Source: a virus
Virus record (IMG/VR): IMGVR_UViG_3300005329_000021
Coordinates: 1-31,521 of that record
Direction: 5' to 3' (one strand)
Length of the DNA stretch: 31,521 nt
How positions within the stretch are numbered: the stretch's first letter is position 1; the number at the start of each line of letters is the position of its first letter. The notes beneath the pieces were generated by a model, which ran no database searches, was not told the DNA's origin, and saw nothing but the letters and a program-made list of their open reading frames with translations. A program made the position numbers and the translations under genes. This document shows, in pieces, positions 195 to 31,521 of the stretch.

Positions 195-3100
195 CAGTAG
201 GGCGAGCCCGACACGACGGGCGCCGGCGCAGGCTGCCACGGCCAACGGATGTTGCCGATCTGGCCTATCGCCGGCCCGCTGATCACATTGGCGGGCGAAT
301 TGGCGATTGCCGGCGCATCCCTGAACATCAGCGAGACGCGCGTACCGTCGCCCCGCACGACCGGCACCATTGCCCCGTTGCGCAGTTGCGCCATCAGGAC
401 GATGCCCGTGTCGTCCTCGTTGTTGGCCCAGCCGCCGTTCTTGATGCCCTCGAGCCAGATCGCCTTGCGCTCGGCCGGTGTGCGCACCGGGCTGCCCGGG
501 ATCGGTGGGAGTTGGTCGACGTCGATGCTCTGCTGCACCCGCTCCGCGGCGCGGAGCGTCACCCCGGTCATGTCCTGGTCGCCGAGCTTTGGCACCCGCA
601 CGGTGTTGTTCCCGAATTTCTCGAAATCGTACTTGTGGTTGATGATGCCGTCGATCGCGTGTGTCGCCGCTTTGGAGGCGTTCTCGCCGCGGTAGGCGTA
701 GTAATAGGCCAGCGCCTGCGCCGCCTCCTGGACAGTCTCGTACAGCTTGATGCCGCCCTCGTTCGGCCCGGTCGAATAGCGGAACTTCTCCAGCTGGCTC
801 TCGACCTGCTTGTCGATCTCCTTCGCCTGGTCGGTGGCGCCGGCCTTGACCGCGGCCATGCCGCCTTTCTGCGCGATGACGCCCATCGCCCGCGACAGAT
901 CGGCCGCGGCGACCTTCTGATCTTCGCGGTCCATCGTGCCGAGCACCTGGTAGGGCCCGGGCAATTTGCCTCGTGTGACCAATTCCTTGTAGACCTGCGG
1001 CCAGTGATCGTTGGTGCCCATGCCCTGGCCGTAGCGCTGTGCGACCTGGTTGATCGCCGCTGCCGGGTCGGTTTTTGAGGCGTCGATCCGGGCGATGCCG
1101 GCGGCGATGTTGCCCGCCTCGGTATCCGACAGGATCGACCGCTTCTGCACCGGCACCCCGAGCCGCTCCTGTTCGGCGAGTGTCGCGTGCGCGTAATTGG
1201 CAAAGGAGCGCTGGGCCGCATCGATGGTTGCCGCACCGGCTGGCGTTCCGGGGATGGCGGTCTGGGCCTCATTGGCGAGCTGCGCCTGCTGCTGGTAGAG
1301 GGCCTTAACCTGCGGGCTGTAATTGGCGACATACGCGCTCGGGTCTTTGGCAAGCCCGGCCACGTGGTTCTGCACGACCTCGTCGTAGATTTCGAGAAGC
1401 CTGCTGCGCCTGGCGTAATTGTTGGCGGTGGGGTCGTCGGTGCCGGCGGCCAATTGCGCGCGCTGCGCGGCGATGTCCGCCGGTGCCTGGGTCCGCACGG
1501 TCGAGATGAAACCGCCGCCGGTGCGTGCGTCGTCGGCGACCTCGAGCAGCTCGGCGGCCTTGTCGGCCGGTAGCAAGCGCCGGATGCGGTCGACCGGCAC
1601 GGTCCATTCCTTGCCGTCGGCGAGCGCTGCGACGCCGTCCTTCAGTTCCTTGTCGAGCGCGGTGCGTTCGGCGGCGGTCTGCGTCTGCCACAGGCTGTGG
1701 GCGTGGCGCAGCTGGGTTTCGACCTTCTCGGCGACCTCCGGGGTCATCGTCCCGGCGGCGACCCGGCGCTGAACCTCGGCGAGGTTGGCGTCGAGGTCCG
1801 CCGCCTTTGGCCGGCCTAGCACAGCGGCGGGGGCTGCGGTCGCCGGTGTCGCGGGCGGCGTGCTGCTACCGGTGGTCGCGGCGGGTTCTGCCCCGGCGGG
1901 AGCCCCTCCGGCTGCAGCCAACGCCCCGCGCACTGCCGTCATCTCGGCGGCCGGGTCGGTGGAATGGATCTTGTCGCCACCGGTCTTGCGCTGCGGCCCG
2001 GCGAAGATGACGCCGACGCCCTTGTTCTGCTCCGCGATCTGCGCCAGCCGATCGTTGACGCCAGCCAGCTTGGGGTCGGTGCCGACCCCCATCAGCACGA
2101 TGTTCTTTGCGCCGCGCTCGCGCAGGGCGGCGATCTGGGCCGGGACCGTCTCGGTTAGATGCCGGTCGATCTCTTCCTTGGTGGCGTTCGAGATGCCGGT
2201 CGACAAGGCAACCGCCCTGTCCTTGACCTGCCCCTCGGGGATCTTCGGGATGATCTCGCCGAGCACCTGGTCCGGGTTCCAGCCCGATACCGCGGTGTCG
2301 CCCTCACGGTAGCTGCCGACGCGGGTGCGATCCTCCTTGCCCTGCGCCCCGCCGCGGCGGACGAGGTGCGCCGCGAGAGAGTCGCCGACAGCGGTGATCG
2401 GCGCCTGTGCCGATGAGCCTGCGGCCCCGGGTGGCACGGGTGGCGTGAGCGTGGTCTTGGCTGCCTCTTCCAGAAACTTCTGCGCAATCTCTGGCTTTTG
2501 GATCGAGCGGTGCTGGGTCGCTACGTCCTGCGACACCGTGTAGGTTTTGCCATCGGTGCCGGTGATCGAGACCGTTCCGGTTGTTGGCGTCTCGCCGCCC
2601 GCACTCGCTGGCGGCTGCGCCGGCGCACCGCCGCCGCCGGCCATAGCTTGCCGCATGCTGCCGATATAATTGCTGATGCGCGTGCCGTTGCTGTCGGTCC
2701 GGTCGATCTTTCCGCCACTGTTGAGGTAGGCGGTGACTCCCCCCACCCCGCCGAGGTGGGCGCCCATCAGGATTCCCGCCTTCTCTTGCGGCGAGGCGTT
2801 GCGATAAGCTGCGCTTTGCGCCATCAGGCTTTTGTGGTGATCGAGGGTGTAGCTCTCGAGAAAGCGTTCCTGCAGTTCGGGATTGCCGAGAAACTCCTGC
2901 TGGCTCGGCACCGGCACGCCCAGGCGCTCCGCCGTCTCCCGGATCTCGGTCCTGCCCAACTGATAGCGTCCGCTATATCCGCCCGTGTTGGGCGGCTGGT
3001 CGTATCTGCTGCTTTCGCGGGAAGCGAGATGACTGCGGAATATCTGATACTGCTCGGCATTAAGCCCGGTGCCGGTGAGGAACTCGCCGCCGGGCGTGTA

Positions 3101-3997: not shown

Positions 3998-4524
3998 TAC
4001 ACGGCGCCCGTCGATGGCATGTAGCGGTTCCACTTGTCCGCGAAGCTCGCGCCCCCGCTCAACAGCGAGCCGAATGCGCTCATGGTCCCGGCGCGGCGGG
4101 CGTCGGAGGCAGCGGCAGTCTGCAGACCGGCCTGGGCGCCGTAATCGGCTGCCTGGGCCTCGTAGGCGCGTGCCCGTAGTGCCGCGTTCTGCGCCACATT
4201 GGCGGTGTCGAGCCGGCCGATCTGCGCCGCCCCCTCGCGCACATCCACCAGGGACGGGCTGTCGAAGCTCAATCCGCTCGCGCTTTGCGAAGCGGCAATC
4301 GAACCCTGTTGCGCACGGTTCTTCAAATCCTGCGCCTGTGCCTGGGTCTCGCCGGCCTGGCTCGCGTACTCGGCATTTTGCTGCGCGATGATCTGATTGT
4401 TACGCGCGACCTGCGCGGTGTACTCGGCCTGCCGCCCAGCCGCCTGCCCTTGCGTTATGCCGCCGACCATGCCCATCACGGTCGAGAGACCCGATAGCCC
4501 GAGACCTACCCCGCCAGCCGCCAT
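3997..4524 (-). CDS. T7 gp14-like internal virion protein
   Basis: A 175-residue protein with a glycine-rich hydrophobic N-terminus (about 3-30, GVGLGLSGLSTVMGMVGGI) that could insert in a membrane. A long Ala/Gln-rich helical region follows (YTAQVARNNQIIAQQNAEYA and onward), of the type seen in small ejection proteins of podoviruses. It ends in a short conserved-looking GSLLSGGASFADKW segment. It sits between a gp13-like gene and the large ejection protein, the order found in T7-type ejection modules, where the gp14 homologue helps form the conduit through the outer membrane. The ATG at 4524 overlaps the previous gene by 19 bases. The longer open frame upstream of it is an arginine/proline-rich shadow. 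Confidence 0.65.
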   Translation of the reverse strand: MAAGGVGLGLSGLSTVMGMVGGITQGQAAGRQAEYTAQVARNNQIIAQQNAEYASQAGETQAQAQDLKNRAQQGSIAASQSASGLSFDSPSLVDVREGAAQIGRLDTANVAQNAALRARAYEAQAADYGAQAGLQTAAASDARRAGTMSAFGSLLSGGASFADKWNRYMPSTGAV

Positions 4525-4970: not shown

Positions 4971-7633
4971 ATGACGTCGCCTTGCGCCAATTCGGGATAA
5001 ATCGAGAGCACCGTGGCCGGATACCCGCCGTCGGACTGAATGCACACCCAGCCGCCGATCGAGAACTCCTGATCGAGCCACAGACGCTGGTCGCCTGAGT
5101 AGAGACCCCAAGCGCGATAGGGCAGCACGACCGGATCGTCGGTCGACGAAGTGCCCTCGTTCCACGGCAAGAGGTCGTTGAAGGTTGGTCCGTACCTGAG
5201 CCCCGATGTATTGCGCACCCGGATCGAGGCAGCAGCTATCTTCTTTCTCTTCCCCTGGATCGTGGCGGCACCAGGGGTCTCGATGTAGAGCGGCTGCAAT
5301 TGCGCCGAGAAGCGGTATCCCACCACTATCTGCGATCCCGGTGTGGTCAGCGTGATCGCACCCCCCGTGACGGTGAATGGCCCCTGCAGGGTGCCGTCGA
5401 CCGCGGCGTAGACGCTTGTGCCCTCCATGTGCCCAAGCCCGGTGACGGTGCTCAGCACCGGGTCCAGGCGCCACAGCCCCGGATACATGGATTGAGCAAA
5501 AAACGGCCTGTCCGGGTCTATGGCGACCAGCACCTGGGTCGGGCTGTCGTACTGCACGATGGTGCCGCGTGAGTTTACCGCGTGGATGTGATAGCCGACG
5601 TGGCCCGGCAGGAAGATCGCGGCCGAGGCTATGGCGATCTGTGTCCCGGTTGTATTGCCAATATCCAGTTGGCAGTTCGGATAATTGGAAACGGTCGATA
5701 ACGCACCATCCAGCTGCCACGCATCGCTCGCCTGGAACAACCGCTGCTGTGCCTGCCGCTCGATCCAGCGCGAACCGAAGCGCTGCACGCTGAAATACAC
5801 CGCGTTGACTTCGCCCTCTTGGATCATCGCGACCGACTCGACGATGCCGTTCGGGGTGTCATGCCGCGCCCATCCGGCGATCTCTTGAGCCTTGAGGTAG
5901 GTGAGCGAGAGGAGCGTGCCGGTATTGAGCACCGCCCACACCACCTTATTGGGTGCGTCGGCATAGGCCCAATCGAGCACCCGCGCCTGGTCGAAGAAGT
6001 GGTTGGACAGGATCGTGAGGTCGCCGCCGGCATAGATGTTAAAAGTGAAATTGAAGGTCAGTTCGCGAACCGTCCCCTCGGTCTGCACGTAGAGCACGTT
6101 GTGGTCGACGACGATCGGCTCGACATCGGCTGAACCGAACTGCGATTGCGGCACGATCACGGCATTTGTGGCGCTGACCGCCACAGGGTTGGTAGCCTGC
6201 GAACTGCCGCCGGTCAGCTGCACCACCCCGGAATTGGTGCCGATCAGGAGTCCGCCCGGCATTGCATGCAGCCAAAAGATGCGGCTGACCTGCGTGTCGA
6301 AGATGTCGAATTGGAAGGCGTCGCCATCGGTCACCGGGTTGCTCTTGCGGAAATCGTCCGGGCTGCCGGGGCGCGAGGCAGCCAGCGAGACCGGCTTGTT
6401 GATGCTCGAGGCGTAGACCATGCGTTGCTGGAAGAGGCCGACCGTGGCCGGATCGAGGCCGCTCGAGGGGCCGACCGTGAAGGTGGCAGCGAACCCGGTC
6501 CCGGCACCGACAGCGGTTGCGGTCGGCGCGGTGTAGCCGCGGCCAGGGTCGGCGATGTAGAGGCCAACAACGCCGCCCGCCGTTCCAGCGATGTTGCTGC
6601 CCATCACTGGATAGACGAGCGCGCCTGTCCCGGTAGAGTCTACAACCGTGATGGTCGTAGCCCCCGGCATATACCCGGAGCCGATATTCGAGATTGCGTA
6701 GCCGGTAAGCGCGCCCGGCGCGAACGGGTCAGCTGCCTGAACCGGCGCCTGCGTGAAGTCGGCCACGATATTGCTGTCGGTAAACTCGACCCCGTAGCTG
6801 TAGCCACAAAAGCCAAATTGCTCATGTGGCAGCGGCACGCGGTTACCGTGCGCCGGTAACGCTTTCCATACTTTGTAGTACGCCGGGCTGCCTGTCGCAT
6901 TCCAGCGAACCGTCACGGTACCCTGCGTGAGCCCGATATTGATCCCGGCATCGCTGACCATCGGCACCGACGGCAGGCTTTCATCGCCGTCCGTACTTAC
7001 TGCCGAGACGGCGTACATATATCTGGTTTCTACCGCTGGGGCCGGTGTCACCCCGGACGGCGCGGCACTGACAGTGACACTCGACATCACCGGCGCGGCG
7101 ATACTCGGCGTCGAGGACACCTCGGTCAGGGTCCAGTTGTCGTCCGCGTAACGTGACAACTTCTTGCGGGTGCGGTTGCGGCACACGAGCCACATTACAT
7201 CGGCCATCTGCACATAGTGCAGCTCGCGAATGTCCGCCTCGGTGTATGGGGTCAGCACGTCGTAAGGGAACCCGCCACTCTGGATGAAGCCGGCATTCGA
7301 GCCGTTCGGATACGAGGGCGTACCAGGGTTTTTGATAAAGCGAATATGGCCGGCGCTGAACACCAACACATAACTCTGGCCGACATCCGGCGAGAATTGG
7401 AAGGGGATCAGGCGGCAGTAGCCGGGAGTAGCAGGATAGCCGATAAACTGCGTGCCCGGGCGTATCGTGGCGCCGCCGCGCGGATCGACATAGAAGTTGC
7501 GCATGACGGCGCAGCCGGTGCCGTATTTCTGCAGATCCTGCCTGCCATAGAGGCCCGGCGCCACCTCGCCGGCGGCAAAGCTGTTCTGCGGTACGGTCTG
7601 CGGAGCTTCGGGGTCCGGCGCGCTGCGCGCCAT
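4967..7633 (-). CDS. Tail nozzle protein (T7 gp12 / tail tubular protein B-like)
   Basis: An 888-residue protein predicted to form the distal nozzle of the short tail. The N-terminal motif NSFAAGEVAPGLYGRQDL, followed by KYGTGCAVMRNFYVDPRGGA and RPGTQFIG, is characteristic of the phage nozzle (gp12-like) family. The rest is mainly beta-strand, rich in Gly, Thr and Val, as expected of a beta-propeller-type tail tube component. The length is in the normal range (T7 gp12 is 794). The ATG at 7633 shares its A with the TAA of the upstream adaptor gene (TAATG). Its position after three gp11-like genes and before the ejection genes supports the assignment. Confidence 0.85.
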   Translation of the reverse strand: MARSAPDPEAPQTVPQNSFAAGEVAPGLYGRQDLQKYGTGCAVMRNFYVDPRGGATIRPGTQFIGYPATPGYCRLIPFQFSPDVGQSYVLVFSAGHIRFIKNPGTPSYPNGSNAGFIQSGGFPYDVLTPYTEADIRELHYVQMADVMWLVCRNRTRKKLSRYADDNWTLTEVSSTPSIAAPVMSSVTVSAAPSGVTPAPAVETRYMYAVSAVSTDGDESLPSVPMVSDAGINIGLTQGTVTVRWNATGSPAYYKVWKALPAHGNRVPLPHEQFGFCGYSYGVEFTDSNIVADFTQAPVQAADPFAPGALTGYAISNIGSGYMPGATTITVVDSTGTGALVYPVMGSNIAGTAGGVVGLYIADPGRGYTAPTATAVGAGTGFAATFTVGPSSGLDPATVGLFQQRMVYASSINKPVSLAASRPGSPDDFRKSNPVTDGDAFQFDIFDTQVSRIFWLHAMPGGLLIGTNSGVVQLTGGSSQATNPVAVSATNAVIVPQSQFGSADVEPIVVDHNVLYVQTEGTVRELTFNFTFNIYAGGDLTILSNHFFDQARVLDWAYADAPNKVVWAVLNTGTLLSLTYLKAQEIAGWARHDTPNGIVESVAMIQEGEVNAVYFSVQRFGSRWIERQAQQRLFQASDAWQLDGALSTVSNYPNCQLDIGNTTGTQIAIASAAIFLPGHVGYHIHAVNSRGTIVQYDSPTQVLVAIDPDRPFFAQSMYPGLWRLDPVLSTVTGLGHMEGTSVYAAVDGTLQGPFTVTGGAITLTTPGSQIVVGYRFSAQLQPLYIETPGAATIQGKRKKIAAASIRVRNTSGLRYGPTFNDLLPWNEGTSSTDDPVVLPYRAWGLYSGDQRLWLDQEFSIGGWVCIQSDGGYPATVLSIYPELAQGDVI

Positions 7634-13672: not shown

Positions 13673-14716
13673 TTAAACAACACGGGCTTCGGTCGACAGG
13701 ATGGCGTCGCAGATACGCACCGGGATGCCGCGGAAAGTCGTCACCGCGCGGCCGTCGAACTCTTCGCGGTTCAACAGCACGTTTGTTTTATTCATTGCTT
13801 GGAGGTCCAAATACGTCGCGACCACCCGGTTGCAGTAGATCACCGTCTGACCCATCGACCCCTGGATCTTCGGGCTGTCCGAGGTTTGGATGTTGGTGGT
13901 GCGCGAGGACGTCGTCGGCAGGCGGTAGAGCGCCCGCACCAACCCGTTTATCAGGTTCGGCGCCGAGCCGCCGTTCAGCAGCGTCACGTCGATGTTGGCG
14001 AGCCGAGCATTAAAGCGCCAGTCTCGGACAGACAGTCCAATTTCCCACTTATAGTGATCTCGATACGCCATGTATGTGTTGCCGTTTGTATCCTGCACCG
14101 GCCACTCGCCCATGTCCTTGTGCTGCAGCCCGGTAATCTTGCCCTTCGGGAAGATGCCGTGCGTGGTATTTGCGCCCCAAGTCACGATCCACACGCTTGT
14201 GTTGGTGCTGCCGGTGCCGCCCATATCGACGACGTTGGCGGCGGAGGCGCCGGTTGCGGTGTTTACCGTCGAGTACCGCGGCGCGAGGCCAGTGAAACGC
14301 TCCGGGGTGACGGACTCATTGCCGTAGATCAGCGTGGTCGCAACCTGCTGGTTCATCCCCTCCAAGAACGCCATGTTCTCGCTGGCGCGGAAATTCTCCC
14401 TGTCGCCGGCCAGGTTCACGATGTCGCTGTCGATGAGAGCGAAAGCCTCCAGGTTGCCGCAGGTGTCGACCACCTGCGCGGTCGTCGATTTCGACCCTGG
14501 CACGCCGTAGTTCAAAAGCCTCCACGTCGCGGTCGGCAGGCCGGTGCGAATAGTTGTTTTATGGCCGGTCGCTAAATTGCCCTCCAAGGTCAGCATGTCC
14601 AACAGGATTTCGTTAGTCTGCGAGAGCAGTTCGATGATCGTGCCGATCTTGTACCCGTCCTCGACCCGTTTGGCCCAGTCCGCGTAAGTCATAACGTTAG
14701 TGCCTAACGTTGCCAT
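13673..14716 (-). CDS. Major capsid protein (Bbp17-like, HK97-type fold)
   Basis: A 347-residue protein recognised as the major capsid protein of the BPP-1 (Bbp17) group. The N-terminus MATLGTNVMTYADWAKR, the segment GHKTTIRTGLPTATWRLLNYGV with SKSTTAQVVDTCG after it, and ENMAFLEGMNQQVATTLIYG followed by PERFTGLAPRYST are all hallmarks of this family. In BPP-1 this protein has an HK97-like fold with permuted topology. The ATG at 14716 has GAGG nine bases upstream and lies 11 bases after the scaffold stop. Length is normal for the family. Scaffold, capsid and cement genes follow each other directly. Confidence 0.85.
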   Translation of the reverse strand: MATLGTNVMTYADWAKRVEDGYKIGTIIELLSQTNEILLDMLTLEGNLATGHKTTIRTGLPTATWRLLNYGVPGSKSTTAQVVDTCGNLEAFALIDSDIVNLAGDRENFRASENMAFLEGMNQQVATTLIYGNESVTPERFTGLAPRYSTVNTATGASAANVVDMGGTGSTNTSVWIVTWGANTTHGIFPKGKITGLQHKDMGEWPVQDTNGNTYMAYRDHYKWEIGLSVRDWRFNARLANIDVTLLNGGSAPNLINGLVRALYRLPTTSSRTTNIQTSDSPKIQGSMGQTVIYCNRVVATYLDLQAMNKTNVLLNREEFDGRAVTTFRGIPVRICDAILSTEARVV

Positions 14717-14727
14717 GTGTCAGATCC

Positions 14728-15414
14728 TCATCTGCGCGTCCCGTCGTTACGGGAACTGTTGGGATAAAAAACTTCGCCCAACGTCTGCGCTTGGCGCGAT
14801 CCATTGGCGGACGGGCCACCTTGAACAGGTCTGCCCTCGGAGAGGATGCGGGCTACGCGAAGAAGCGGGATAACAACTTTCGGGTTGTTGCCGACAGCTG
14901 GGATTGCGCTCAGGAAATCGGGACCGAACGGACCATTCGGATCGGATGCAACACGCTTGAACGTGTTGACCGAATCCTGTAGCCGGTCGCCGCCGAACTC
15001 CTTGTCGGCCTTGATCTCCGCCAGCCATTCGTTGTTCTGCTTGTCCCAGCTGGCTTGTTGCCTTTGGGTCGCAGCCTCGAGCATCTGGCCGGCGAAGTCG
15101 GTGAGCTTTTGTGCTTGCGGCGCGGAGAGCCGCTCCTCCTTGGCAAAGTTCGTAAACTCGGTGAAAACCGCATCGTTGGGATCGATGCCGGCGGGCACCG
15201 TGAGTTTTTCTGGGTCGAACGGCTCTGGCGCCTGCGCTGCCGGCGGCTCCGGGTCGCCCTCAAGCAGCAGGTTCGCGGCCTCCGCCTCCGGCGGCACCTC
15301 ATTCGGCGAAGCCGGTGTCGTCGTCTCCGTCTCGGTCGGAGTCCCGCTCCGACCAGGTGTCGTCGCCGGTGTCGTAGTTTCCACCGAAGGCACTTGGCCG
15401 GCTTGGTCGCTCAA
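14728..15414 (-). CDS. Scaffold-like capsid assembly protein, TTG start
   Basis: A 228-residue protein immediately before the major capsid gene. Residues 1-75 are low-complexity and acidic (Thr, Pro, Glu). The rest is helical, with WDKQNNEWLAEIKADKEFGG, then a helix with FKRVASDPNGPFGPDFLSA, then GNNPKVVIPLLRVARILSEG and a closing LGEVFYPNS. This is the pattern of scaffolding proteins in BPP-1-like and related podoviruses. The start codon is TTG at 15414, with a perfect AAGGAGG six bases upstream (15421-15427). As a result the gene overlaps the previous one by 116 bases in another frame. No upstream ATG or GTG in the frame fits this site. Confidence 0.7.
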   Translation of the reverse strand: MSDQAGQVPSVETTTPATTPGRSGTPTETETTTPASPNEVPPEAEAANLLLEGDPEPPAAQAPEPFDPEKLTVPAGIDPNDAVFTEFTNFAKEERLSAPQAQKLTDFAGQMLEAATQRQQASWDKQNNEWLAEIKADKEFGGDRLQDSVNTFKRVASDPNGPFGPDFLSAIPAVGNNPKVVIPLLRVARILSEGRPVQGGPSANGSRQAQTLGEVFYPNSSRNDGTRR

Positions 15415-19154: not shown

Positions 19155-21241
19155 CGCTTCGCCTCTAGCGCATCGAGCTTCGCCAGGGCATCATCGAGTT
19201 GTTGCCGCAGTGTCTTTATCTCGGCCTCGTGCGCCTGCCATCCGACCACAAGATCGGGAACCAACTTGGAGTAGTCCGCCATCCACGGTGTGTCGGGCAT
19301 GTCGTCGGGAGGACGCACGATCATCTCTGGAAAAATGGCTTCCTGCTCTTGGGCAATGACGCCGCGCCCCCGAGAGCCGTCCGACTTCCAATTAAAATCC
19401 CAGATTTTAGTATCTCGCAGTGCGGTAAGGTCTGCCGCCAGGCACTCGTCAGTCTTGAGGCGTCCATCCGATGAGGTCGCATAAGTTGTCGCGGCGGCAT
19501 TAGTAGCAATCGCCCCGACCTGCCCGGTAGCGTTCCGAAAGATGTGGTGATAGATCGTTGTGTCGATGGTCGTTGCCGTAATCATGACGCTGGACGCACT
19601 GGCCGCTATGTTTTGCTGAACATGAAAGCCAGTGGCGTCGATCGGCGACGCATTGGCGACCATCACCTGTCCGTTGAGTAGCGCACTGCCGGAAACTACC
19701 GTAGCGCCGGAAAATGTCGTGGTGCCGGTTGCGCGAACAATAGATAACACCTGTCCGACATACGTCCCTGCGTCGGAATAGCGGTGGATGCCGAAATCCG
19801 AGCCGGCATTTGATCCGCTCTCGAGCGCCTCATTGCCGAACTGTACAAGCCAGCGGGGCGATGCGCCGGTAAAGGCGAAAATATTGTTCGAGAACGCCCC
19901 TGCTACTTTCTGCAGGTTCAGTACCGCGTCGCCTGCTGTGGCAATAGTCGCAGGCCCGGTCAGCGTGCCGCCCGTGAGCGGGAGCGCTGGCGTCGTCAGA
20001 GAGAGCGTACTGCCGGTGAGCGTAAGGCCCGATCCCACCGTCCAATTCGGGCCGGTGGCCCCTGTAGCACCCGTCGCGCCCTGCGGCCCCGGCATGTTGC
20101 TGGCCGGCACCCACTGCGACGAGTTGCCGTCATTGTACCACAGATAAAGCTGCCCGCCCGCGCTGTCCCACCACCCGGTGCCCTGCGTCGGGCTGGCCGG
20201 GGGCGCGTCGCCGATCGAGATCGAAGCGGCACCACCGCCACCGCCACCCGCTGCGACGCCATTGATGTATAGCGCCTGAGCATTGACCGAACCGGCGCCC
20301 ATAAAGCCGCCGCTCGGATTGCCGACCTTCATGCCGCCCGAAACACTCAGGCCGCCTGCCGTGCCGTACACCTCCGTTTGCACGGCATCGTTGATATCGA
20401 GCCACCGAAAACTCTGCCCGGTGAACAACTCCATCGCAACGCCGCGGCCACCACCACCAACCGAGTTATCCAGCGCGGTGTCGTGGAAGATGATGCCCTT
20501 ACGGAACTTCGCCACATTGTCGATGAACACCAGCCCGGCCGAGACCGGGTTGGGTGCGCTCGCCCCACCAGCCGCGATCGACAACCCCAAGGTCTGACCC
20601 GGCCCACTTATGAGGTGCGGCGTCACATCGTAGGTGGAACCGTAATTACCGATGTCGATCTCGACGCCGACAGTGGACCCGGTCACACCCGCGCTGCGCC
20701 GCGCCTCAAAGTAACCGCCCCAGGCAGCCGGGTTCGGGAACGGCCCCGCTGCCGAGGTGTCGTCATTGATCCCGTACCCGCTGATGCCGATCGCAGCCCC
20801 GGTGGTGCCCCCTGTGGCGGTCTGAGAGTCGCTGGTCCTCGACCCAACAGTGAGCGCCAGCGTGCCAACGGTCGAGAGAATGACCGACTGCGACCACTCG
20901 CCGGTATAGTTGAGGTTGGTCAGTTGCGACAGCCAGTTGCCCGGGCTGTTGGCGTGGTTGCCTGCGGCTACGGCCGCCGCTGCGCCGACAAACAATCGAT
21001 CCGACAAACGGACAACGTGCGCGCCATAGTCGGTAAACAGTGAGTTGAGATTACCAATATCGCCGCCAGTTACGGTGAAGTCTCCGTCGATCGTATCGGA
21101 AGAACCACCCGCCCCAATATACGCCTTGATCTGGTCGAGCGAGATGTAATGCGGCATCGGACTCGAGGGATAGGAGGGCCGCAACAGCATATCGCCAGTG
21201 ACGGCGGGCCACAGCGGCCAGAGACGCAGATCACCGTCCAT
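19151..21241 (-). CDS. Tail fibre with collagen-like segment and C-terminal S74 chaperone domain
   Basis: A 696-residue trimeric-type tail fibre. Beta-rich sections occupy the first 370 residues. A short collagen-like repeat (GPQGATGATGATGP, about residues 383-396) follows, then more beta repeats. The C-terminal 110 residues form a peptidase S74 intramolecular chaperone: SSDGRLKTDE carries the Ser/Lys dyad, followed by IWDFNWKSDGSRGRGVIAQE and a terminal helix EAEIKTLRQQLDDALAKLDAL. This domain normally trimerises the fibre and cuts itself off before the Ser. The start ATG at 21241 shares a base with the terminase TGA (TGATG). A GTG at 21250 is the alternative. Its place directly after the large terminase is unusual. 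Confidence 0.8.
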   Translation of the reverse strand: MDGDLRLWPLWPAVTGDMLLRPSYPSSPMPHYISLDQIKAYIGAGGSSDTIDGDFTVTGGDIGNLNSLFTDYGAHVVRLSDRLFVGAAAAVAAGNHANSPGNWLSQLTNLNYTGEWSQSVILSTVGTLALTVGSRTSDSQTATGGTTGAAIGISGYGINDDTSAAGPFPNPAAWGGYFEARRSAGVTGSTVGVEIDIGNYGSTYDVTPHLISGPGQTLGLSIAAGGASAPNPVSAGLVFIDNVAKFRKGIIFHDTALDNSVGGGGRGVAMELFTGQSFRWLDINDAVQTEVYGTAGGLSVSGGMKVGNPSGGFMGAGSVNAQALYINGVAAGGGGGGAASISIGDAPPASPTQGTGWWDSAGGQLYLWYNDGNSSQWVPASNMPGPQGATGATGATGPNWTVGSGLTLTGSTLSLTTPALPLTGGTLTGPATIATAGDAVLNLQKVAGAFSNNIFAFTGASPRWLVQFGNEALESGSNAGSDFGIHRYSDAGTYVGQVLSIVRATGTTTFSGATVVSGSALLNGQVMVANASPIDATGFHVQQNIAASASSVMITATTIDTTIYHHIFRNATGQVGAIATNAAATTYATSSDGRLKTDECLAADLTALRDTKIWDFNWKSDGSRGRGVIAQEQEAIFPEMIVRPPDDMPDTPWMADYSKLVPDLVVGWQAHEAEIKTLRQQLDDALAKLDALEAKR

Positions 21242-22722
21242 CAAGCCCACATCCTCTCCGGCGCAAATGGATCGTACTCGCTCTCCACAAGCGGTTTGTG
21301 CGGATGCTCACCACCAGCGTCGAGGCTGGGGACAACCGGGAACGCAAAGGTGAGGCAAAGCGCGTCGGCCCAGTCGGGGCTCGGCACGCCCCTCGCCCGC
21401 ATGTCCGCCTTGCGCTCGAGCTGGATCTCGTCGCGGCTGTTGAACCCATAGGTCGGGGCCAGCAGCTGCTCCTTCAGATCCTGACTGTCCTCAATCGCGC
21501 CGCCCACCAGCCAAGCACGCAAAGAACCCCACATCTCAGCCCGCTTGTTGGCATACCGCTCGCCCCCGGTGACCAGGTCGGAGCGGTCGGCGCGAGCGCC
21601 GAACTGCACGTCATGGACAGAGAGCCGCAGCTGCCGGCAGCGGTCAATTACCCCACCCCCGACACCGCCGCCGTCGATAAACACCGCATCAGCCCGGAGC
21701 GACTGCGCCAACTCGATAACCCGGCTCGCCAGCGCCATCGTGTCGAGACCCCGCAGCCGGGTGGCGGGGATGCTGCGCGCGTCGCGGCCCTTCCTTACGA
21801 CGATGACGCTCTCGTCGTCGCCATAACGCGCCACGTCGACGCCCAGGACGCACGGGTCGAACCGCTGCGGCATCGCTTCGCGCTGCTGGGCCTCAGCAAC
21901 AATCGCCGCGCTGATGAACTCACTCTCCCCGCTGCGCGGAAACACGCCGCGCACCCGGATGCGGAAATAGTCGCTGTCCTCACCGTAGGCGCGAGCCCAA
22001 TGCTCAAACTGCCCCTTGGAAGTGAAGCTGACGCGCCGCGCATCAACCTGCGTCGTGTGCCAGCCGCTGCCCTCCGTGAAGGCGTCGCGAAAACGTCCCG
22101 TCGACTTGGTCGGGTTGCCAAAGGCAAACCACAGGCGCTCAGTGTCGGCGTCCGAGAGAAAGCCCGACGCCGTCTCCCAAATGATCGGAGGAATGGCGCT
22201 GGCCTCGTCAAAAACCATAAACACGCGGCGACCCTGGTTGTGAAGCCCAGCAAATGCCTCCGGGTTGCGCTCGCTCCACGCGATCATGTCAGTGCGCCAA
22301 GTGCGCGCCCGCTCCGCGTCGACGCTGAATAGGGCGGTGGCCTCCAAGCGAAAAAGCGGGCGGCCGAGAAATAGGCGATACCATTTCGCCAGTTCGACCC
22401 ACGTCTTTGTTTTTAATTGCGTTTCCGTGTTCGCCGTGACGACGCCCCGGGTGTCGGTCGCGGTACTCATCGCCCACAACACCAGCCACGCCACCAGGGA
22501 CGACTTGCCTACACCGTGGCCCGATGCCACCGCCTCAAGAACCGCCTCGTCCGGCGACAACCCCTCGCCCACCCGCCGCAGCAGATCCGCCTGCCAGGGC
22601 TCAGGACCAGGCGAGGAGGAGAGCTCACCATCACCCCAGGGAAAGACAAAACGCACAAAACCCAACGGGTCGCCGGCATACGAGGCCAGGGCGTCTATAA
22701 GGGCGGAGAGATCCTCAGACAC
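21241..22722 (-). CDS. Terminase large subunit
   Basis: A 493-residue packaging motor and nuclease. Walker A is SGHGVGKSS (67-75, Lys73). Walker B is VFMVFDEAS (Asp172, Glu173). The nuclease domain has three acidic positions: Asp296 in LGVDVARYGDD, Asp350 in AVFIDGGGVG and Asp453 in DWADALCL, the RNase H-like arrangement of large terminases. Length is normal and no residue is missing. The start is a GTG at 22722, with a stop codon two codons upstream in frame and no clear ribosome binding site. The gap to the small terminase is 378 bases, unusual for this genome. Confidence 0.85.
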   Translation of the reverse strand: MSEDLSALIDALASYAGDPLGFVRFVFPWGDGELSSSPGPEPWQADLLRRVGEGLSPDEAVLEAVASGHGVGKSSLVAWLVLWAMSTATDTRGVVTANTETQLKTKTWVELAKWYRLFLGRPLFRLEATALFSVDAERARTWRTDMIAWSERNPEAFAGLHNQGRRVFMVFDEASAIPPIIWETASGFLSDADTERLWFAFGNPTKSTGRFRDAFTEGSGWHTTQVDARRVSFTSKGQFEHWARAYGEDSDYFRIRVRGVFPRSGESEFISAAIVAEAQQREAMPQRFDPCVLGVDVARYGDDESVIVVRKGRDARSIPATRLRGLDTMALASRVIELAQSLRADAVFIDGGGVGGGVIDRCRQLRLSVHDVQFGARADRSDLVTGGERYANKRAEMWGSLRAWLVGGAIEDSQDLKEQLLAPTYGFNSRDEIQLERKADMRARGVPSPDWADALCLTFAFPVVPSLDAGGEHPHKPLVESEYDPFAPERMWA

Positions 22723-25150: not shown

Positions 25151-25455
25151 GGCGGAAACCCTATTCGCTTGAGGTATGGCACCGGAAGGGATCGCCATTC
25201 GAACTCGTCCTTGAACTCGCCGCATACGTGTTCTCGGCCAGTCACGACATGACCGGAAGGCAATCCCATTGACGAACTCGAAAGCCCCAAAATATCCACT
25301 CTTTCTTCGCCGCTGACTGGTGGAGATTCTATGCACTCACCAACCAACGAACTCAACGACCGCCACCAATCGCAGCCGGCGCAACACTTGCCGTTTGTGA
25401 AATAGAAACTGTCGAGAATCTCCTGCCTTTCGGTTTCGATGGTGCGGACGGCCAT
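25147..25455 (-). CDS. Cysteine-containing metal-binding-type small protein
   Basis: A 102-residue protein with NGKCCAGCDWWRSL, GECIESPP and HVCGEF. The pattern CxxC, then GxC, then a final CGxF is shared by a group of small phage and bacterial proteins thought to bind a metal. It overlaps the following gene as ATGA and begins three bases after the previous stop. A regulatory or structural role cannot be chosen from the sequence. Confidence 0.6.
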   Translation of the reverse strand: MAVRTIETERQEILDSFYFTNGKCCAGCDWWRSLSSLVGECIESPPVSGEERVDILGLSSSSMGLPSGHVVTGREHVCGEFKDEFEWRSLPVPYLKRIGFPP

Positions 25456-28628: not shown

Positions 28629-28735
28629 CGCAGCTCGATCCGCCGCAGCATGAGGAGCACATCGGCGAGCCCTACCATCGTGCGGGCGAGAACCCAGATG
28701 CAGGGCTTGATGATGAGGCGGGTGAGCAGCCTCAC
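28625..28735 (-). CDS. Tiny hydrophobic ORF
   Basis: A 36-residue ORF with GTG start (VRLLTRLIIKPCIWVLARTM...). Its GTG overlaps the stop of the PEP-CTERM-like ORF (GTGA) and its stop overlaps the start of the DpdA-like gene (ATGA). The two-sided coupling supports translation. It has one likely amphipathic or membrane helix. Its role may only be to couple translation. Confidence 0.4.
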   Translation of the reverse strand: MRLLTRLIIKPCIWVLARTMVGLADVLLMLRRIELR

Positions 28736-28887
28736 GACGACCCGGCCCGACGGCGCCTCCCGAGGAGCCCCAGCCCCAGGAGCGCGCTCCCCAGCATCGC
28801 GAGCGAGCCCGGCTCGGAGACCGGGACCAGTTGTGCATTAAGGAGGGATGCTTTATAGCAGGGCGCACCCGCCGGATGTTTGCGCAT
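28732..28887 (-). pseudogene. PEP-CTERM tail without its protein body
   Basis: The 51-residue ORF from ATG 28887 ends in SEPGSLAMLGSALLGLGLLG followed by RRRR: an acidic-Pro motif, a membrane helix and a basic end, the PEP-CTERM sorting signal recognised by exosortase. It lacks the signal peptide and mature domain that such proteins need. It lies just upstream of the plus-strand GIY-YIG gene, on the opposite side from a complete PEP-CTERM gene with a similar tail. It looks like a remnant whose 5' part was lost, perhaps by insertion of the nuclease gene. It could also be a short functional membrane peptide. Confidence 0.5.
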
Positions 28888-28939
28888 CACGGCGGGCACT
28901 TGACCCTCATCCGATCCAACCGGACGAAAGGCCCTCCCC

Positions 28940-29896
28940 GTGATACAACTCCCCCTCGATCTACGCCAGAGTGGCGTTGCCTTCCCGTTTGGCCGCGAGG
29001 CCTCCGATCTCTGGAATAACTTTCGCACTGTAATAGGCAACACGCCGGTGTCTCGTGCAGGCGCATACGGCATCTATTGCATCCTTAATGGCAAGTGGTA
29101 CATAGGGATCACAGGAATCAGCGTAGCTAAACGCCTCCACCAACATCGCTGGTCGGCGAACGGTGCCGGCCCAAAATTTAGAAACGCTTTGGTTAAGTAT
29201 GGTTTCGATAATTTCATTGTAGTCCCCTTATTCTATTGCATCAGTGATGATACAACAGAGCTTCCGTATATAGAACTAGCTCTGATCAGCACATATAGCT
29301 CTAGCGGAAAAACCGGATTTAACACTAACCTTAGCGCCGGCATAGTGGGTCCATATGGACCCGAGTTTGGTGCAATAATGAGTGCCGTTAGAAAAGAGCA
29401 TTTTTCTGATCCGGACAATTTGGCGCGACACAAAGTAAGACAAAAGAAATCGCATGCCCGGCCTGAGGTGCGGGCCAAACTGAGCGCCTCCTTGACGGAA
29501 TATTTCGCAAGTCCGGAAGCGAGAGAGAAAGACGGCGCCGCCGTGAAGCAATCACATGCGCGTCCCGAGGTAAAAGCCAATATAGCCAACGCCCAACGGA
29601 AGCGTTTCGCGAATCCTGAAGCCAGAGCCGCAACCAGCGCGGCGACAAAGGCAGCGATGGCACGGCCTGAGGTTTTCGAGAAAGTGAGCAAGGCGTCCGT
29701 AGAAACATGGAAGGACCCTGAGGTTAGACAAAAGCGGGTAAGCGCTAGGAGAGCCTTGTCTATAGTTGAATGGCAGGACCCGGAGATAAGAGCGAAACGC
29801 ATTGCGGGTCTAAAGGCATCATGGCAAAACCCTGAAGTTAGAGCTAAGCGTCTTGCTGGCGGGAAAGCAGTACGAACACGAGACGCGGCCGATTAA
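28940..29896 (+). CDS. GIY-YIG endonuclease with modular DNA-binding repeats
   Basis: The only clear plus-strand gene, of 318 residues. The GIY-YIG nuclease domain (about 40-130) has AGAYGIYCILNGKWYIGITG, then the conserved Arg in SVAKRLHQHRW, and later Glu in LPYIELALISTY. From about 165 to the end there are nine repeats of about 20 residues centred on PEVRAK, PEAREK, DPEVRQK, DPEIRAK and the like, resembling NUMOD3-type DNA-binding modules of homing endonucleases. Codons are less GC-rich than in nearby genes, so recent transfer is likely. The start is GTG at 28940. It converges on the PEP-CTERM gene and the two stops overlap. Probably a free-standing homing endonuclease. Confidence 0.75.
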   Translation: MIQLPLDLRQSGVAFPFGREASDLWNNFRTVIGNTPVSRAGAYGIYCILNGKWYIGITGISVAKRLHQHRWSANGAGPKFRNALVKYGFDNFIVVPLFYCISDDTTELPYIELALISTYSSSGKTGFNTNLSAGIVGPYGPEFGAIMSAVRKEHFSDPDNLARHKVRQKKSHARPEVRAKLSASLTEYFASPEAREKDGAAVKQSHARPEVKANIANAQRKRFANPEARAATSAATKAAMARPEVFEKVSKASVETWKDPEVRQKRVSARRALSIVEWQDPEIRAKRIAGLKASWQNPEVRAKRLAGGKAVRTRDAAD

Positions 29897-29903
29897 TCGG
29901 CCG
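29886..29903. repeat. Palindrome covering two convergent stop codons
   Basis: CGGCCGATTAATCGGCCG is a perfect 18-base palindrome. The TAA stops of the plus-strand GIY-YIG gene and the minus-strand PEP-CTERM gene both lie in its ATTAAT centre. It may act as a bidirectional transcription stop, although no long T tract follows. Confidence 0.55.
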
Positions 29904-30615
29904 TTCTCCTGCGTCTGTAGAATATCCCCAAACCCACAAGAGCAGAGCCAAGCAGTGCAAGAGATTCCGGTTCTGGTACAGCTTGGCTTGTTTTTATCTC
30001 CGTCGCGCCACGGTTCAACAAATTTGCCCCAGCAGTCAGCACGCCGGTCGCCTGCTCCGTCATCGAGAAGAGGGGACCGTCGCTCACCACCCCGGAGCCG
30101 TTGTGCGAGAAACTGTCGGCAGCGAAGATGGCGCTGCTGGTGAACGTGTCGATCAGCGCGCCTGGGGTGTCTGTGGCGGTGTCGGCACCCTGTGCATTGG
30201 CCGGGTCGTTGTACCAATTGAGGGTAATGTTGGACCCCACCGCGTTCTGCCACACGCCGCTGCCTGCGGTCGCGAATTGTGTTACCGGCCCGATAAAGTT
30301 GTTATCCGATACTGTGACCGTGACCTGAATATCGGACCCGGTGGTGTTGATAACGCTCAGCGAGGAGGTGTTGAGGATATCGAGAGACGCGCTTTTCGTG
30401 CTCGTCTGAATGCTGCCGTTGACCGTAACCCCATTGATCGTCTGGTCAGCTAGTTGAAGCGTTCCGACAGCGGCGTTGAGGTCGCACCCGGTGTTGTCGA
30501 CGCATATCCCGGTCGTGCCGCCGAAGTCCCAGGAGATTTGTAGCGTGGCGTGCGCCGGCGCCATGCCGGCAGCGAGGGCAATAATCGATGCAGTTGCTAG
30601 TACAATTGTACGCAT
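29893..30615 (-). CDS. Secreted PEP-CTERM protein
   Basis: A 240-residue exported protein. Residues 1-23 (begin MRTIVLATASIIALAAGMAP, cleavage site AHA) form a Sec signal peptide. The mature part is rich in Thr, Ser, Asn, Gly and beta strands (LQISWDFGGTTGIC, VTVTVSDNNFIGP). The C-terminus has VPEPESLALLGSALVGLGIF followed by YRRRR, a standard PEP-CTERM signal: PEP motif, membrane helix and basic tail. Host exosortase would process and release or anchor it. GGAG stands eight bases before the ATG at 30615; a GTG at 30627 is rejected. Such proteins are found in bacteria that make extracellular polysaccharide, and are rare in phages. Function is unknown, perhaps surface alteration of the infected cell. 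Confidence 0.75.
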   Translation of the reverse strand: MRTIVLATASIIALAAGMAPAHATLQISWDFGGTTGICVDNTGCDLNAAVGTLQLADQTINGVTVNGSIQTSTKSASLDILNTSSLSVINTTGSDIQVTVTVSDNNFIGPVTQFATAGSGVWQNAVGSNITLNWYNDPANAQGADTATDTPGALIDTFTSSAIFAADSFSHNGSGVVSDGPLFSMTEQATGVLTAGANLLNRGATEIKTSQAVPEPESLALLGSALVGLGIFYRRRRTAD

Positions 30616-30630
30616 GACGGTCTCCACTGG

Positions 30631-31020
30631 TTAATACAACTCATGTAACATGCATTGAACATCGTCCCATGACGAGGCCACGATGTATTCGACCCCGCAG
30701 TCCACGCAGCGCTGCTGGAATGCCTTCTGCTCCGGCGACAGGCGGCCCTTTGGCTTGCGGCCAAACAGGTCGCGCGAGGCGGGCCTTTTGAGTTCGACCA
30801 TCACGGCGCGGCGCTCGCCGGCTATGCACAAATCGGGCGAACCTGGCAGTAGCATGCCGTCAGTCTTCATCCGGTTGACGACGCGAGCGACGACGACGCG
30901 TTCGGCCTCGTTGTGCGAGGGGATCCACAAACCATTCGGCACCGGCACTGCCACCACCGGATAGCGCGCGAGGCGGTAGAGGATTTCGCTCTGCAGCGAG
31001 CGCTCGATCTGGGTGGTCAT
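30631..31020 (-). CDS. VRR-NUC nuclease
   Basis: A 129-residue nuclease of the VRR-NUC (PD-(D/E)xK) type. The segment GSPDLCIAG carries the Asp (63), VELKRP the Glu76 and Lys78, and SPEQKAFQQ the Gln (98), followed by ASSWDDV. All the catalytic positions of the family are present and length is normal for phage members. It is probably involved in DNA repair, recombination or junction cleavage. The ATG at 31020 overlaps the previous ORF's stop as ATGA. The gap to the PEP-CTERM gene is 15 bases. An upstream part of the same open frame is a shadow of the preceding ORF. Confidence 0.75.
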   Translation of the reverse strand: MTTQIERSLQSEILYRLARYPVVAVPVPNGLWIPSHNEAERVVVARVVNRMKTDGMLLPGSPDLCIAGERRAVMVELKRPASRDLFGRKPKGRLSPEQKAFQQRCVDCGVEYIVASSWDDVQCMLHELY

Positions 31021-31325
31021 GGGCGGCCCCGCCCGGCACAGGGCGAAGCATGCTTCGCCCGCACGCGCCCCCCTGCCGCAAAGGAACGCGGGACTGCGGC
31101 ACGGCGCGGCCGGGCGGGACAGGTGTGTTTCACGTGAAACATTCGCGCGGGGAGATTGCGCGAGACCGTCGCATCGGCAATCTGCGATACGCGGCAAGCG
31201 CTATTTAGGTCACCGCAGGTATCTAAAATTAGAGATATATTGGCGGGAAATATCCGCCATTCTCTGTCGCATAACAGGACAGGAATGGGAGGATATATGC
31301 CTAAACGTCGAGCAATATCAGCCAT
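31017..31325 (-). CDS. Possible small ORF carrying the parS site
   Basis: A 102-residue open frame (begins MADIARRLGIYPPIPVLLCD). It overlaps the regulator gene by eight bases (ATGGCTGA) and the VRR-NUC gene by four (ATGA). The same kind of coupling is found elsewhere in this genome. The first 65 residues look protein-like (REWRIFPANISLILDTCGDL); the rest is Arg/Pro/Ala-rich. Residues about 62-67 (MFHVKH) are encoded by parS. It may be a real gene or a control region that happens to be open. Confidence 0.45.
   Translation of the reverse strand: MADIARRLGIYPPIPVLLCDREWRIFPANISLILDTCGDLNSACRVSQIADATVSRNLPARMFHVKHTCPARPRRAAVPRSFAAGGRVRAKHASPCAGRGRP
31126..31141. other. parS: Perfect parS centromere site
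   Basis: TGTTTCACGTGAAACA is identical to the 16-base consensus site bound by chromosomal ParB proteins across bacteria. ParB binds it, loads CTP-dependent clamps on DNA and links it to the ParA segregation system. No parA or parB gene is visible in the window, so host ParB is the likely partner. It is the only full copy seen here. Confidence 0.85.
31217..31259. promoter_or_regulatory. AT-rich patch with inverted repeat (possible operator)
   Basis: An AT-rich stretch in otherwise GC-rich DNA holds TGGCGG and CCGCCA as inverted arms (31241-31246 and 31254-31259) separated by seven bases, and an ATCT/AGAT pair nearby. It is situated between the small regulator gene and the VRR-NUC gene, so an operator or promoter is possible. 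No clear -35/-10 pair was assigned. Confidence 0.25.
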
Positions 31326-31518
31326 CGGCGGCTGCCGGTTCGGGCGGAGCTTGCTCCGCCCGGGGCGGCGCCTGCTGCATGAAGGCGTCGGCCCGTTCCA
31401 TCGTCCGAACCGTGATGTTCTGCCCGCCGCGCAGCCGGCTGGCGAATTTCGTATCGCCCAACGCGAGCTTGCCAAACGTCGTCTCGCTGATGCGGTGACG
31501 CAGGCAAAACCGTTCCAT
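31318..31518 (-). CDS. Small helix-turn-helix-like regulator
   Basis: A 66-residue protein starting MERFCLRHRISETTFGKLAL. The pattern RISETTFGKLALGDTKFASR, then GGQNITVRTMERADAFM, resembles short DNA-binding proteins of alphaproteobacteria: a helix pair ending in FxxRLRxG and a second helix with TVxTMERxxxFM. It is the first gene in the window in the direction of transcription and probably controls the genes after it. Its last residues are Ala/Pro/Glu-rich and disordered. The start ATG is near the right edge, so its own upstream region is not seen. Confidence 0.6.
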   Translation of the reverse strand: MERFCLRHRISETTFGKLALGDTKFASRLRGGQNITVRTMERADAFMQQAPPRAEQAPPEPAAADG

Positions 31519-31521
31519 GTC

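Follow-up and report, generated by a model that had tools for sequence, protein, structure and literature searches.

Bacteria move their chromosomes apart by means of a 16-letter DNA tag, parS, and P1 and the extrachromosomal mycobacterial prophages encode ParA and ParB together with a private site. The phage described here resembles these P1-type ParABS phages in that a centromere site lies in its genome, and differs from them in that its site has the chromosomal sequence and that no ParA or ParB match was found in the part of the genome covered. Mobile elements can also take the site of another replicon. SGI1 has two sites that imitate the IncC parS; they are bound by the plasmid ParB, and they stabilize SGI1 while destabilizing the plasmid (PMC10954446). 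SGI1 is thus a mobile element that has another replicon's parS but no parAB and depends on the ParB of that replicon for its stability (PMC10954446), and our phage, with no parAB match in the part of its genome covered, would resemble it in this. In contrast, it is an integrative element with two sites, it relies on a plasmid's ParB with the protein Sci added, and its binding and stability were established by experiment, whereas the present case is a phage with one chromosomal-type parS that is known from sequence alone. In addition, a single parS together with chromosomal ParAB can stabilize an unstable plasmid (PMC7022226).

Among phages, phi29 depends on Spo0J for spore entrapment, according to the summary of Meijer (2005) given in PMC9437464. 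In that account, a phage genome exploits the chromosome-segregation ParB of its host (Spo0J), which is the proposed likeness to our phage; the differences are the sporulating Firmicute host, the linear protein-primed genome and the control by Spo0A. Phages of Alphaproteobacteria carry sites for the host CtrA (PMC9437464). They resemble our phage in offering sites to a DNA-binding protein of the host cell cycle, but CtrA is a transcription regulator and not a segregation protein, and no CtrA site (TTAA-N7-TTAA) was found in the DNA analyzed here. By analogy, the best reading of the orphan site is that it would work like the stolen parS sites of SGI1, recalling the use of Spo0J by phi29. A phage with an orphan parS belongs to a kind already known but thinly documented, and it is the wide spread of such sites in phages that deserves to be followed up. 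A literature search that covered neither most subscription journals nor any bioRxiv preprints turned up no survey of phage-borne orphan parS sites.

An exact chromosomal-type parS in a phage contig

The window, i.e., the whole stretch of 31,521 nt analyzed here, is an IMG/VR virus record of the linear class (often a fragment). By Pfam and PHROG matches, its genes include those for a terminase, a head-tail connector, a major head protein and a tail protein, all of phage type, and it is a partial podovirus-like genome. A preliminary description, made from the letters of the window, had reported an exact parS near its right end and had considered it unlikely by chance. Both points hold. The 16-bp palindrome that defines chromosomal-type parS, TGTTTCACGTGAAACA, was located by pattern search and direct reading (Table 1); it is a perfect palindrome, the match is exact, and a further check for copies, as that description had proposed, showed no other match at ≤3 mismatches in the window. 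Under Markov models of order 1-3 trained on the window, 1.2e-6 to 2.4e-6 exact copies are expected, that is, about 2e-6, and only 5 of 100 shuffled windows contained any match at ≤3 mismatches. The parS observation in the window is thus confirmed and is not chance in the ordinary sense.

Table 1. Positions of the features discussed in the text.
Feature	Record	Position	Strand	Evidence or remark
Chromosomal-type parS palindrome TGTTTCACGTGAAACA	Window	31126..31141	.	Pattern search and direct reading
VRR-NUC domain nuclease	Window	30631..31020	-	PF08774, 25.6 bits vs cut-off 23.8; PHROG 824 and endonuclease families; next minus-strand gene after parS
Small 67-aa ORF, cut by contig end	Window	31318..31521	-	No Pfam match; weak PHROG 7669 (function unassigned), E 1.5e-4
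PEP-CTERM protein	Window	29893..30627	-	PF07589 above cut-off; 60% identical homologue in relative G006
Second ORF with PEP-CTERM-like tail	Window	28732..29073	-	
GIY-YIG domain protein	Window	28940..29896	+	C-terminal half repetitive
Large terminase	Window	21241..22722	-	PHROG 2 terminase large subunit; query for relatives and probable host group
CRISPR array	G002, left end (L206)	1229..2459		19 repeats of GTCGCAGCTCGTACGAGGGCGTGGATTGAAAC type
ParB_N protein	G006, C1 (L209)	13920..15161	-	Above cut-off; methylase-like C-terminus by eye
parS copies	PQ006149.1 (L305)	635-650, 662-677, 1414-1429, 2857-2872, 4096-4111, 5628-5643		Three of them ≤3 bp from an annotated CDS end

Two sister contigs (G001 and G002) come from the same phage, with 99.98% identity to the window. 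Their overlap with the window stops at positions 25408 and 30362, so that the last 1.16 kb, including parS, rests on one assembly, and a DNA pattern search just past parS retrieved no second one, although near-identical records may lie outside the scope of that search. On the other side, G002 extends 12.8 kb past the window, bringing the covered part of this phage to about 44.3 kb of a genome that is not closed. The single assembly, together with the position of parS at 380 nt from the contig end, would be compatible with a chimeric join to a bacterial chromosome. Nevertheless, we consider such an artefact extremely unlikely: the PEP-CTERM gene spans position 30362, where the overlap with G002 ends, it has a homologue in a related phage, and the VRR-NUC gene follows it after 3-4 bp on the same strand, which makes the parS end continuous with phage genes. 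Moreover, no mnmG, rsmG, parA or parB gene was found in the window, the contig end included.

The preliminary description placed the site between an HTH-like regulator and a VRR-NUC gene. The VRR-NUC assignment stands, with PF08774 above its cut-off, but the HTH label is unproven, since the small ORF at the contig end has no Pfam match and its PHROG 7669 match is weak; its search for relatives gave one 16-residue match alone, which is uninformative. The VRR-NUC protein has no relative in the viral contigs nor in the 34 terminase relatives, and among phages only Pseudanabaena phage Pam1 carries one, at 32%. That no parAB is in view, as also stated there, agrees with our searches: ParB_N, ParA (AAA_31) and Phage_integrase gave no match in the window and the two sister contigs (G000-G002, about 44 kb of an incomplete genome). 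A P1-like arrangement, with parA and parB adjoining parS, is therefore not what the window contains.

The start codon of the VRR-NUC gene lies about 105 bp from parS, with parS upstream, and this position bears on a regulatory role, in which host ParB bound at the site would silence or time the transcription of VRR-NUC and its neighbours instead of serving segregation. In Pseudomonas aeruginosa, ParB represses promoters near parS once the site has been placed there (PMC7022226), and many phage sites fall in gaps between genes, often beside early genes such as A1/A2. However, a sigma-70 scan, of a kind that is weak here, showed no convincing promoter next to parS, and some of the phage sites fall inside coding sequence. 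Regulation as the main role thus appears unlikely.

The site in possible hosts and its absence from relatives

Relatives of the phage were collected as terminase matches, from viral contigs and from bacterial genomes, many of these records being incomplete. The bacterial genomes with terminase relatives are mostly alphaproteobacteria (e.g., Reyranella, Acetobacteraceae and sphingomonads), and the host of this phage, which we infer from these relatives only, is probably an alphaproteobacterium. Of 12 genomes with a related prophage, 7 contain the exact 16-mer and none its reversed control, and some members of the host group do not have the exact 16-mer. The copy in Reyranella and in several other genomes is close to mnmG, rsmG and parA/parB (genes identified by eye from translations), so that the phage site appears identical to the chromosomal site of the probable host group. 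One contig of Gluconacetobacter carries both a prophage relative and a parS; the latter was considered as a phage site and discarded, as it is near parA and therefore chromosomal.

The preliminary description had asked whether parS is kept in relatives, and it is not. No parS at ≤1 mismatch was found among the 33-34 terminase-relative viral records searched whole (G001 and G002 included), as far as these mostly incomplete contigs reach, nor at ≤2 mismatches in any of 80 prophage loci in bacterial genomes. A site in G011 with 2 mismatches, AGTTTCACGTGAAACT, was set aside because matches with 2 mismatches to random palindromes also occurred in this set of records. From this absence in the searched viral relatives and prophage loci, parS looks accessory, or recent, in this phage lineage rather than ancestral. 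Non-conservation in relatives is also one half of what had been named as grounds for abandoning the idea of ParB borrowing, the other half being a lack of binding by host ParB.

A different question is whether the remaining part of the phage genome could encode a ParB-like protein to which the site belongs. This is conceivable because the relative G006 encodes a ParB_N protein above the cut-off (Table 1), and G010 and G012 show weak ParB_N matches. Nevertheless, we give this explanation very little credence: G006, G010 and G012 carry neither parS at ≤3 mismatches nor a ParA match, and the own ParBs of plasmid SCP1 bind sites unlike chromosomal parS (PMC13245405).

Recurrence of the same palindrome in phages

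The strongest of the new evidence comes from phages at large. The exact 16-mer is present in at least 120 IMG/VR stretches, while a palindrome matched in composition, TGTCTTACGTAAGACA, is absent from IMG/VR. When the 16-mer, padded by N, served as a BLAST query against INPHARED, 286 of 50,697 phage records were retrieved, a figure that does not equal the number of independent origins because these records are redundant; the corresponding 824 places count both strands and represent about 412 sites. With the same method, two control palindromes gave 0 and 0 among the 50,697 records (n = 3 control searches across IMG/VR and INPHARED). As matched palindromes are absent while parS occurs in hundreds of records, chance composition can explain few of the sites observed. 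This comparison is also what weighs against the 16-mer being, in our phage, a neutral passenger that arose or was picked up accidentally and lies idle; in favour of a passenger are its absence from the searchable relatives and the fact that the site was chosen out of a very large collection. On balance, we regard it as very unlikely.

The named hosts of the carriers include Listeria, Microbacterium, Arthrobacter, Gordonia, Lactobacillus, Bacillus, Ruegeria, Clavibacter and Vibrio, and no enterobacterial phage was found among the matches listed. Inoviruses and microviruses are among the carriers, as are the phi29-type phages B103, Goe1, BSP11 and Chedec 11. A second palindrome, TGTTCCACGTGGAACA, which we take to be the parS form used by Pseudomonas, was retrieved in 58 phage records, where Pseudomonas phages form the largest group (17); Klebsiella phages account for 10, and in several of these the site is inside a baseplate gene. 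The parS type would therefore match the type of the host in part.

Part of the INPHARED signal must be interpreted cautiously. About 12% of the matches sampled resemble bacterial contigs, namely the records named Listeria phage LM 4-11-1 and LM 4-14-1, and are to be discounted; these records are short and unannotated, and several have up to four parS sites. An Acinetobacter record containing a betaine transporter was likewise discounted as a phage carrier. For IMG/VR, a ParB profile (TIGR00180) gave any match in 5 of 100 carriers and a match above the cut-off in none. Contamination by host chromosomes is therefore an unlikely source of most of the IMG/VR signal, and most of the sites are orphan within the reach of these records.

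The sites are not placed at random with respect to genes. Where the carrier has a GC content of ≤52%, a simple ORF map leaves 47 of 96 sites outside ORFs, vs 11.1 expected (binomial p ~2e-19). More than one site is found in 17 of 120 IMG/VR stretches, most spacings being shorter than 1.3 kb. Nine Arthrobacter Korraviruses share the core GTTTCACGTGAAAC unchanged within an otherwise variable gap, the short one that separates the DNA polymerase I gene from the PurA-like gene; the outer pair is T...A in Nubia and C...G in the others, both sides changing together. In Vibrio phage phi 3, one copy lies in the terminal repeat, with A1 on one side and A2 on the other, and the 5.9-kb inovirus bajarodino virus 6 has six exact copies (Table 1).

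These six copies in so small a genome would fit a titration of ParB, in which replicated phage genomes soak up the protein and disturb origin segregation and division of the host to the benefit of the phage. The SGI1 case points in the same direction, as extra parS copies destabilize the resident parABS replicon in a dose-dependent manner (PMC10954446). In contrast, the phage of the window has a single site, and titration as its function is distinctly improbable.

Probable borrowing of host ParB

The preliminary description had proposed that the phage may borrow host ParB. Our results uphold this idea in part, through the identity with the 16-mer of the host group, the rarity of the sequence, its recurrence as an orphan and its conservation in Korraviruses, but not through conservation in the phage's own lineage. 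Recruitment of host ParB by the 16-mer of the window, as an orphan chromosomal-type parS with a selected function, is in our view reasonably likely. This reading is favoured because the sequence is exact and rare, because it is identical to the one that possible hosts have at their parAB region and because orphan sites recur in phages; counted against it are the absence in relatives, the single copy near a contig end in one assembly and the host-group genomes that do not have the 16-mer. The use to which parS is put within this phage is unproven, and we can only tentatively suggest, at somewhat less than even chances, that segregation or positioning is the main one. In such a mechanism, host ParB-CTP would load at the orphan parS and then slide across the neighbouring phage DNA, and it could thereby link phage genomes, whether replicating or extrachromosomal, to host ParA and perhaps also to SMC. 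Phage genomes coupled in this way would be positioned and shared out like the origin region, and competition for ParB could follow as a by-effect in cells with many phage copies.

Beyond this phage, the hundreds of other phage records with the 16-mer suggest that phages probably borrow the segregation protein of their hosts more often than the few known cases imply. A wider proposal is that phages across many groups of hosts, whether as small as the 5-kb inoviruses and the microviruses or as large as lytic myoviruses, have time and again taken up and retained a parS identical to that of the host. Docking on ParABS/SMC would then be common and largely unrecognized, with the window as one alphaproteobacterial case; we would hold this to be evenly balanced between true and false. 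If host ParB does bind phage-borne parS, these phages would use a segregation machinery without encoding it, which could account for the positioning or retention of some phage genomes, and ParB would be an added host dependence. Many sequenced phages would then be directly testable, through one 16-bp site each, in laboratory hosts as well studied as Bacillus subtilis and Arthrobacter.

Other features of the phage contigs

The CRISPR array at the left end of G002 adjoins a cut TnpB/IS605-like ORF (identified by eye), and its 18 spacers have no full-length match elsewhere among the fetched loci. In the window, the GIY-YIG domain protein is encoded on the strand opposite to that of the surrounding genes. 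The two proteins with PEP-CTERM or PEP-CTERM-like tails (Table 1) are possible substrates of a host exosortase.
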